Assembly (NCBI GenBank): GCA_023078555.1
Contig: CM041199.1
Coordinates: 1,798,001-1,862,000, forward strand
Length of the DNA: 64,000 nucleotides
Direction: 5' to 3'
Source: Ulva prolifera
Taxonomy: Eukaryota; Chlorophyta; Ulvophyceae; Ulvales; Ulvaceae
Part shown: piece by piece, positions 10,714-33,558 of the stretch
Layout: each line of letters begins with the position of its first letter
Numbering within the stretch: position 1 is the stretch's first letter
Program-made: the position numbers and the translations under genes
Notes under the pieces: model-generated
The model's database searches: none
What the model saw: the letters and a program-made list of their open reading frames with translations, nothing else
What the model was told of the DNA's origin: nothing

Positions 10714-13114
10714 TCAGATGGCCTGACCGGCGGCGGTGCGGGACTCAAAGAGGTTGCGCCAGTGCACCACAACATCCTGCGCCGTCGGCCGGTCCTGCGG
10801 CCGCCGCTGCAGGCAGTGCAGCACCGCGCGCTTCAGCATCCGTAGCTGCGCCACCTTCTCCGCCTGCCCCTGCGCCCCCTCCTCCCACGGCAGCAGCTCC
10901 CGGCCGCACAGCTGCGCCCAGATGGACTCGCGCGTCGATGTGAAGGGTGGGAAGACGGGGGCGCCGGTGAGGAGCTCGAAGGCCATGACGCCGAGCGCCC
11001 ACATGTCGGCGGCGGCGTCGGCGGTGATGGTGCGGTCGCCGCGCTCTGCGGCCTGGGCAACCTCAGGTGGGGCATATGAGGGGCTGAACGACAGCGGCCC
11101 GAGTTCCCCTGCAGCGGACCATATGTCATCCTGATCTGCGTTGATCAGGCCGGGTGCAACTCGAGACAAAAATGCCGTCCAATGCCGTCCTTTTGAGCAT
11201 GCCGCTGCGGCATCGAGCGCGCAGTTACGCAGCCCAGAAACCGCTGATCAGGCATAGAGCGACGCGGAACATGTACAGGAACGGCCTTCAGGCGCATGCA
11301 TCATGCATGCACCCTCATGTGCGGTGCCCGTCCGCAACTGCCAACAGTGTGACCATCATAATGACATGTCAGCCGGACGCCGTCTCATCCCTGCATCAGT
11401 AGACAATTTGACGGTAGGGTCAGCGCACCGGTGCGGGCGGCGCAGCCAAAGTCCATGAGAGTCCACGAGTGCTGCCCGGGCAGGCGCAGCACGTTGCCGG
11501 GCTTGAGGTCGCGGTGCGCCCAGCCGCTGCCGTGCAGCTGCGCCAGCCGCTCCGTGATCAGGCACAGCGCCTGCACACACATGCATGCACGCTGTCAGAC
11601 TGTATCATATCTGATCATGGTATCAGGCATATTCGCTGCGTGGACCGCCAGCGACGCGCACGTGCTAGATGTCTGCTGGTGAGGCGTATGCATGCATAAA
11701 TGTAATGTAGCAACCAGACAATATTATGTCGCACAAGGAGGCATCTACCTGCAGCCATGGTGCACAGTTCAGAGAACCAATACCCGCAGCGCTGATACAT
11801 TGCGCTATACCTGGGCCGAATCGGAACATATATGCACGTACGGAGATCTGCTTTTCCCCCCAAACAGGTCATGATCAGTGCCGCGACATGAGACAGCCAG
11901 GACTTAATGCAAATAAAGCCGGGACTCACGTCGAGGATGGTGCTGAAGGCAGGCTGCGTCTTGGCCTTCCACTCCTGCAGGCTCTCGCCCTTCTCGAGGA
12001 CAATGCATGGCGGCCATGCGTAGCCCCGGCCGTTGCGCTCCGACGAGTCCGCGTTGCTGAGCTCAAGCTTCACCGCTGGCATCATGCTGCGCAGCACGTC
12101 CACCTGGTACAGCTTCAGCTCGGTGTCGAAGGCTGTGCGCGAGAGGAAGAACTTCACGGCGACGGCCTCGTCGGTGCGCGTGCTGCGCATGAACTGCACG
12201 ACGCCCTGCCCCCCCTCGCGCCGCTCCGTCCACGGCAGCACCATGAACTGCCCCAGGAACTGCTCATTCCGGCTCCGCATGTGGTCAAGCTCCGTCATCA
12301 GCCGGTCCTTCCGCTGCTCGACGGTCGTCTCTGCCGCGGCGGCCGCCGTGCTGTAGACATCTGTAACTGTCGTCACCGCAATCGACGTCGTCACGCCCAC
12401 TGTCTGGCTGCGCGCCCCGGCCGACGCCGGCTCGGACACCACAGTCGTGCTCTGCTCCACGCTGCCTTGGACGACAAACACCGGCTTGCTCTCTGATCGC
12501 GCCACAGAGCCGGCGCTGCCGCCCCAGAGTGGCGCGTCCTGTGTGCACACGATACCGCCTCCCCCGGCAGCAGGTCCACCCACCGCAGAGACACCCCCGG
12601 CGGACTGAGCCTGCCCTTGAGGCCTCGCAGGTGCGGCTGCAGAGCTAGCGCTGGCGAACGAAACGGCGCCAGGGCCATTCATGTAGCCCGGAGGCATGCC
12701 AGGCATGCCACCGTACATGCCGTTGCTAGCGGCGATGCCCCGGTCGTGGCTGATCTCTGGAGCAGCCTCACCAGGTGTGGATATCGATGCCCTCTTTGAT
12801 GAGCTGCGGCGCCGGCACGCGAGGGCCGCTGCGGCGGCTAGCATCACCACCACAAGGGCCGCGCCGATACCGCCGCCGATCGCAGCCCAATTGGTGCCAC
12901 GTGTACTGGGGGGATCGGGAACTACACCAATTCCAACACTGCTTCCGAAGGACATACCGACCGCCTCACGGCTATCATGATACCCCAGGCGTGCAGATGA
13001 CTCGCGAGATGCCGCGATCAGGTTCATGGTACCAGTGTCCTCCTGTTTGAAATCAACATTGAATTCGCGCGTGAATACTGCAAAGGTGCGGCCGGCTGTC
13101 CGCTCCACCGTGGC
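10714..13114 (-). other. Membrane helix and kinase-coding block of gene A
   Basis: Exons 11-13 encode the end of DOMON 2 (FTREF, LIAAS, GYH), the helix AAIGGGIGAALVVVMLAAAA with a basic stop-transfer (CRRRSSSKR), a Ser/Ala/Gly juxtamembrane region, and the kinase. The exon junctions fall between kinase subdomains V and VI (phase 0) and just after the DFG segment (phase 1, ARTG joined to ELGPLS). All catalytic motifs survive, so the domain should be active. This block has no counterpart in gene B. Confidence 0.88.

Positions 13115-33558: not shown

Follow-up and report, generated by a model that had tools for sequence, protein, structure and literature searches.

What would a cell-surface kinase sense with an ectodomain apparently assembled from an LPMO-like domain and two DOMON domains? 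A gene of this kind lies on the minus strand, from 33558 to 10714, of the window analyzed here, a stretch of 64,000 nucleotides of Ulva prolifera (C4:1798001-1862000, in an 88.9-Mb assembly of 44 contigs). An earlier note on this DNA had read it as a receptor that senses or oxidizes wall or prey polysaccharide. We asked whether the gene is real and single, where its two halves have relatives in the same genome, and what it might report to the cell.

Structure and integrity of the gene

We modeled the gene, here called copy 1, using its sequence motifs together with the splice sites that it has in common with a paralog. The model has 13 exons, all on the minus strand, and encodes 1430 residues in the order leader, mature N-terminal His domain, EGF-like region, two DOMON domains, one membrane helix, and kinase. 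Exon 1 (33432..33558) encodes the leader peptide and the start of the mature His domain (HITLRYP, with His at residue 30), which are also present in copies 2 and 3 described below. It is followed by intron 1 (22539..33431, minus strand). The His domain is spread over five exons, continuing with DFLDNVRTQGLCGEG in exon 2 (22469..22538), WIMPDVNRT...PGQDLSVTW in exon 3 (20300..20377), the second putative brace His (HQGGF, residue 98) and CADCTLR in exon 4 (19966..20149), and WGAGYLFQTCARV, which includes Phe 163, in exon 5 (19239..19493), where the EGF-like Cys region begins. Exon 6 (18243..18502) carries the EGF-like region and, by eye, the first part of DOMON 1. Exon 7 (17107..17999) encodes an Ala/Glu/Gly-rich stretch and then DOMON 1 with Met 569, and exon 8 (16490..16698) encodes the end of DOMON 1 with His 671. 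DOMON 2 starts in exon 9 (15303..15555) and continues in exon 10 (14830..15071; Met 805). Exon 11 (11930..13114) spans the end of DOMON 2 (His 903), the junction at about residues 921-930, the transmembrane (TM) helix at 939-957, a juxtamembrane linker, and the kinase N-lobe. The remainder of the kinase is encoded by exon 12 (11429..11570; HRDLKPGN and DFG) and exon 13 (10714..11108; C-lobe and stop). Intron 3 (20150-20299) is exactly 150 bp long and open in frame, so its retention would preserve the reading frame.

All the motifs named in the earlier note were located on the minus strand: HITLRYP at 33471, directly after the A-S-A that ends the leader, NVRTQGLCG at about 22525, HQGGF at 20133, CADCTLR at 19998, and WGAGYLFQTCARV at about 19484. 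Its phase-consistent 13-exon model also held, with GT donors and AG acceptors at 12 of 12 introns, consistent phases, and 1430 uninterrupted codons followed by a stop. The note had further called for Pfam models of the DOMON, LPMO, and kinase families to be searched against the protein. The DOMON and kinase models scored above their curated cut-offs, whereas no LPMO family matched the copy 1 protein. Two stretches matched DOMON (E, 1e-12), in keeping with the two DOMON patterns that had been noticed by eye, and the kinase matched Pkinase (E, 1.7e-19; 70.7 bits) and also PK_Tyr_Ser-Thr. EGF_2 fell under its cut-off (E, 0.018). The kinase had been described as complete, with HRD, DFG, and APE-like motifs; we found by inspection the catalytic residues K1178, E1189, HRD at 1271-1273, DFG at 1292-1294, and APPE. 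Its best matches in the PDB, among six hits at a threshold of 1e-10, were the Ste20-type kinases OSR1 (E, 5e-12) and TAO3 (E, 7.5e-12). Residues 939-957 are the sole stretch of copy 1 above a simple hydropathy threshold, which agrees with the single membrane helix proposed earlier. The leader was judged by eye; its hydropathy exceeds the 1.6 threshold in copy 3 and stays under it in copies 1 and 2. Copy 1 therefore has the features by which a receptor-like kinase is recognized in sequence: a leader (by eye), a single TM helix, and a kinase with catalytic residues.

A tandem paralog, copy 2, lies at 58533-51478 on the minus strand. It has 11 exons encoding 1011 amino acids, with the same ectodomain and no kinase. 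Its exons are phase-matched to exons 1-11 of copy 1, so the copy 1 model is more than chance; exons 12 and 13 are absent. When the two loci were compared by blastn, counting same-strand matches only and skipping opposite-strand matches, 13 of 14 matches overlapped exons of copy 1, and 1744 of the 1998 aligned bases were exonic. The fourteenth match paired intron 9 of copy 1 with sequence downstream of copy 2. At the DNA level, no match between the two copies was seen for exons 1 and 11, which are alignable as protein.

We estimated substitution rates by the Nei-Gojobori method; the values are pairwise and are not assignable to copy 1 alone. Between copies 1 and 2, dN/dS was 0.21 for the His domain, 0.27 for the EGF-like region, 0.46 for the second half of DOMON 1, and 0.25 for DOMON 2. 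Between copies 2 and 3 it reached 0.50, and one dS value between copies 1 and 3 was saturated. The kinase N-lobe was compared with five paralogs (dN, 0.06-0.10; dS, 0.20-0.67) and the C-lobe with three of the five tried, two being without a pattern match (dN, 0.06-0.08; dS, 0.37-0.88), giving kinase dN/dS values of approximately 0.09-0.38. Pairwise substitutions are thus mostly synonymous in both the ectodomain and the kinase halves. Along copies 1 and 2, dS shifts from 0.16 in DOMON 1 and 0.26 in the EGF-like region to 0.79 in the His domain and 1.33 in DOMON 2, a pattern suggestive of gene conversion in the central part of both genes.

The earlier note had assigned ectodomain and kinase to one gene. 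Since the end of the ectodomain, the TM helix, and the kinase N-lobe lie in the uninterrupted exon 11, separate mRNAs for the two halves would be impossible unless this frame were noncoding; compared with related sequences, the exon shows mostly synonymous changes. Separate genes for the ectodomain and the kinase are ruled out because the junction falls inside this exon, and a chance open frame is ruled out by the exon structure of the paralog and the synonymous substitution pattern. We concluded that, as far as sequence can establish it, copy 1 and its architecture are confirmed.

The length of intron 1, 10893 bp in copy 1 versus 802 bp in copy 2, is accounted for by nested mobile elements (22804-32790), which make up most of it. 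Two inverted arms of 27 nucleotides, 96% complementary, lie at 22806-22832 and 32761-32787. They span 9982 bp, and without this span the intron would be 911 bp long. No convincing target duplication was found at this element, merely a 4-bp match after shifting of the ends. The halves adjoining the arms are contiguous in other genomic copies, for example, at C1:1398511-1399198, and a 1301-bp inner probe matched 8 places, including the window, at 95 to 100% identity (seven of them at 99 to 100%). An element of approximately 9.3 kb, which looks young, thus lies inside a small inverted-repeat element inside intron 1. Intron 2 contains, at approximately 20450-22000, two long CA/TG repeat arrays that are open in several frames. 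Elsewhere in the window there is a retrotransposon reverse transcriptase piece at 38292-39470 on the minus strand (RVT_2, the Ty1/copia type; E, 9.1e-24) and, by eye, a further such part at about 39573-42807 on the plus strand. The young element in intron 1 might disturb expression. Together with the long CA repeats of intron 2, this intron is what could be held to indicate a nonworking gene, either an artifact of the model or a copy that is decaying after disruption by a mobile element. We consider such a gene very unlikely, given the stop-free 1430 codons, the intact splice-site pairs, the exon structure common to copies 2 and 3, and the mostly synonymous substitutions in both halves.

One ectodomain on three C-termini

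In place of a kinase, copy 2 ends in a hydrophobic Ala/Leu tail, with LTAAAAAAAAAAALVVALL at the very end, that resembles a GPI anchor signal by eye. A third copy, at C4:5297896-5291929, approximately 3.5 Mb away, has the same ectodomain with exons 8 and 9 fused, and it continues into a cytochrome b561 domain (Pfam Cytochrom_B561, 24.1 bits versus a cut-off of 23). By inspection, four His residues of the b561 part are in the expected order. The b561 domain is present in copy 3 and absent from copy 1, which has one helix and a kinase instead. One ectodomain is thus found with three C-termini in a single genome: a kinase (copy 1), a hydrophobic tail (copy 2), and b561 (copy 3). Neither these two sister genes nor the mobile elements of intron 1 nor the kinase family behind the inner half figure in the earlier note. 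When residues 1-317 of copy 2 were searched against the genome, copies 1, 2, and 3 were the only loci returned (14 exon matches). There is also a partial copy of the ectodomain at C4:5.272-5.282 Mb and a further fragment at 5.283 Mb. Beside the partial copy, at about 9742-8711 on the minus strand of C4:5272001-5282000, a frame resembles by eye a fumarate-reductase-type flavoprotein. A simpler gene at C3:692 kb encodes at least one DOMON domain and b561, and a long His-rich stretch (HSHDDNEDGHAHPDHSHDG) lies upstream in an open frame (C3:691000-694000). A DOMON family search across the genome gave no match, and its control was likewise unmatched. The three C-termini on one ectodomain suggest a redox protein turned into a sensor; judged by inspection, the b561 form would have come first in evolution.

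The kinase half has relatives of its own. Protein similarity between copies 1 and 2 spans residues 19-926 of copy 1, and four of the six kinase paralogs compared (L042, L044, L045, and L049) match copy 1 from residues 904-925 on. L050 matches from residue 1012; for L047 the match starts at 1075, and there is a second, weak one from 890. Just ahead of the TM helix, at residue 930, copy 1 has GTNWAAIGG, which recurs as GTNWAAVGG in L042, as GTDWAAIGG in L049, and as looser variants in the others. The junction stretch falls inside a single open frame in L042, as it does in exon 11 of copy 1, and an intron was therefore probably not the site at which ectodomain and kinase were swapped. A genome search with the TM-kinase cassette gave at least 128 exon-level matches, including those of copy 1 itself. 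The related kinases form a very large family, with many matches on C5 (7.2-8.7 Mb) and also at C1:4.3 Mb. In other genes of this genome the cassette sits on other ectodomains. The ectodomain of the top-scoring relative (C5:6.707 Mb) is different, was unmatched by the ectodomain searches, and looks by eye, over the approximately 7.5 kb inspected, like a parallel beta-helix.

Candidate copper and haem sites

The candidate brace residues His 30 and His 98, as well as Phe 163, are conserved in all three copies. His 30 follows the A-S-A and would be the mature N-terminus. In the alignment, His 98 falls on the His of HGGG in AA11, which we take to be the second brace His, and the F/Y-x-x-C-A ends of the His domain and the LPMO templates also align. 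Database searches gave weak signals. With the His domains isolated, Pfam LPMO_10 matched that of copy 3, below its cut-off (E, 0.0043; 18.2 bits versus 23), and not those of copies 1 and 2. The same model searched over the genome gave no signal at any of the three copies, its sole signal being one free gene, and a phmmer search of the PDB with the copy 2 domain returned no LPMO. The best PDB match of a three-row profile of copies 1-3 was an AA9 LPMO (E, 0.55). Searches of viral and prokaryotic collections for relatives of the His domain yielded 54 and 69 pattern matches, none of them confirmed, and no unspliced relative was found.

A profile-to-profile comparison was more informative. The free LPMO_10-type gene (C5:6072868-6073011) has a His after its leader and a Cys-rich C-terminal domain that appears chitin binding by eye. 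Its joined pieces match AA15 5msz (E, 1.5e-7) and 7p3u (E, 0.0057), the latter deposited as a putative endoglucanase and matching the AA11 chains 9exj and 4mah. We combined fragments of 7p3u, 9exj, and 4mah with 5msz and the free gene into one LPMO profile, the templates having been picked after the resemblance was noticed. In hhalign, the three-row profile aligned with this combined profile at a probability of 75.5 and a score of 34.6, which none of 200 column shuffles reached (maximum, 22.4). Neither subset of templates was significant alone: 54 of 200 shuffles equaled or exceeded the score with the AA11-type fragments, as did 17 of 200 with 5msz and the free gene (AA15 type). The full result was robust to leaving out each of the five templates and to using each of the three query rows alone (0 of 60 shuffles in every case). 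Control comparisons were null, namely, DOMON 2 (27/60), the reversed domain (30/60), and the His domain against DOMON 2 (54/60). We concluded that the His domain is probably homologous to LPMO-type domains, of an AA class that is not assignable. The label "LPMO-like" in the earlier note is therefore supported by the controlled profile comparison and the subthreshold LPMO_10 signal in copy 3, and not by any Pfam LPMO match in copies 1 and 2.

If the domain were an active LPMO, it could be tethered at the surface to cleave wall polysaccharide, with the kinase reporting damage or products. The profile match, the predicted N-terminal His, and the existence of a free LPMO_10-type gene in the genome are in line with such an enzyme. 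However, Pfam finds no carbohydrate-binding module in copy 1, copy 1 lacks a b561 electron supply, and the BIM1/X325 proteins show that a His brace does not by itself imply oxidation (PMC10952591). A tethered enzyme is accordingly quite unlikely in our estimation.

In DOMON 2, Met 805 and His 903 are invariant in all three copies, and in DOMON 1, inspection of the models indicates that Met 569 and His 671 are conserved as well. For the DOMON domain of HYP1, a Met-His pair has been proposed to hold the haem (PMC10784544), and by sequence copy 1 has these candidate ligands of the CYBDOM family. When the PDB was searched with a DOMON 2 profile, no DOMON structure was among the hits, which were weak and unrelated. 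DOMON domains can bind sugars as well (PMC10784544), so haem is not certain. Proteins of the DOMON/b561 type such as HYP1 take electrons from ascorbate in the cytosol and pass them on to ferric or cupric acceptors (PMC10784544), and a review of the His brace associates BIM1/X325 with copper transport (PMC10952591). Copper acquisition or cupric/ferric sensing, with the brace binding copper as in BIM1/X325 and the kinase reporting metal status, is an alternative that overlaps our preferred explanation. The reduction of ferric and cupric substrates by HYP1, the matching b561 of copy 3, and the additional DOMON-b561 gene with its His-rich stretch all argue for it. Taken by itself, we regard it as rather improbable.

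Proposed function and relation to known proteins

Copy 1 is most likely a receptor that derives from a DOMON/b561-type protein and responds to redox state or copper. We give an even chance to the more specific proposal that it is a receptor-like Ser/Thr kinase in which a secreted copper/haem redox module was joined to a TM-kinase cassette and acts as a state-dependent switch. This explanation and its alternatives overlap, and the probabilities attached to them need not sum to one. The outer part would comprise a His-brace (LPMO-like) copper domain, an EGF-like region, and two haem-type DOMON domains, and the inner part would be a TM-kinase cassette drawn from the alga's own large kinase family. 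Copy 3 would form an electron path from the cytosol through b561 and the DOMON haems to the copper domain. In copy 1, the TM-kinase would occupy the place of b561, so the ectodomain would receive its charge from the exterior, whether from apoplastic reductants, copper, oxygen species, or sister proteins. The receptor would then change its packing in response to its metal state, its redox state, or a bound wall polymer, and this change would turn the kinase on. Copper and haem binding, membrane orientation, the signal, and kinase activation are what we infer from these features. In a bolder form, which we regard as speculative and fairly unlikely, the copper brace and two haems would constitute an extracellular electron relay whose charge state is read by the kinase. 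The b561 sister would feed electrons to this relay in trans, and the cell would thereby measure electron export or wall oxidation directly.

The main rival is recognition without chemistry, since a Neurospora LPMO domain acts in recognition without its brace: the AA11 domain of CWR-1 drives allorecognition with both brace histidines mutated (PMC9550227). In copy 1, the LPMO-like and DOMON folds would likewise bind a partner protein or a wall glycan, and metal chemistry would not enter the signal. The occurrence of the kinase cassette on other ectodomains and the sugar binding by DOMON domains fit such a module. Against it, the candidate brace and Met/His positions are kept in all three copies, and a purely recognizing module would have no need of them. 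We consider recognition alone a serious alternative, if still an unlikely one. Polysaccharide sensing by copy 1 is possible. For the role in sensing wall or prey polysaccharide that the earlier note had suggested we found no direct support, and the b561 sister points first to redox or metal chemistry. Prey in particular we set low. The genome has 38 exon-level matches to chlorophyll-binding proteins, so the host, with its light-harvesting genes, is photosynthetic and prey sensing is less likely. A search for plastid PsaA/PsaB found nothing.

Returning to the redox- or copper-responsive receptor, its parts resemble several known systems. The CYBDOM proteins (Arabidopsis HYP1 and CRR) have an extracellular DOMON domain with a Met/His pair like that of copy 1, joined to b561 as in copy 3. 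Unlike them, copy 1 has a kinase in place of b561, and copies 1-3 add an LPMO-like domain, an EGF-like region, and a second DOMON domain. AIR12, a plant DOMON-only protein, carries a GPI anchor, and copy 2 similarly has DOMON on a hydrophobic, GPI-signal-like C-terminal tail; copy 2 differs in its LPMO-like and EGF-like parts, and copy 1 differs in its kinase. The LPMOs (AA9-AA11 and AA13-AA17) and X325/BIM1 share with copy 1 the N-terminal His, the AA11-aligned second His, and the F/Y-x-x-C-A signature. The copy 1 domain is, however, only weakly similar to LPMOs in sequence and is fused to DOMON domains and a kinase, and in contrast to X325/BIM1, which are marked by an Asp as an additional copper ligand and by a GPI anchor, copy 1 has a TM helix and no GPI-like tail. 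Neurospora CWR-1 and CWR-2 use an LPMO domain in cell-cell recognition, comparable to the LPMO-like domain here, but CWR-1 (AA11-X278) is without a kinase and CWR-2 is a separate membrane protein, whereas copy 1 includes the kinase. Plant CORK1, described as a cello-oligomer receptor, is a receptor kinase like copy 1, a likeness at the level of protein type.

The earlier note knew of no characterized receptor kinase with this architecture, and among the open-licence papers listed by our searches we found no description of a DOMON/LPMO-like receptor kinase; the titles and abstracts listed named no DOMON kinase and no LPMO-receptor-kinase fusion. The same literature yielded nothing joining DOMON, b561, and LPMO, or LPMO, b561, and AA8, and no relevant report on AA15 in green algae. 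GPI anchors are mentioned in a survey of LPMO architectures, from whose main text the words transmembrane, kinase, DOMON, and cytochrome are absent (PMC8615602). As our search covered the open-licence literature and one eukaryotic genome, the same fusion may be present, unnoticed or annotated, in other algae.

If our explanation is correct, copy 1 would be a receptor kinase whose sensor is built from the parts of an electron-transfer protein, placing an LPMO-like domain within a signaling receptor. The three copies would constitute a natural swap experiment, with one ectodomain on an electron carrier, a short tail, and a kinase in one genome. They would make it possible to study directly the roles of DOMON and LPMO-like domains in proteins other than enzymes, as well as the means by which algae sense redox state, copper, or the wall at the cell surface.
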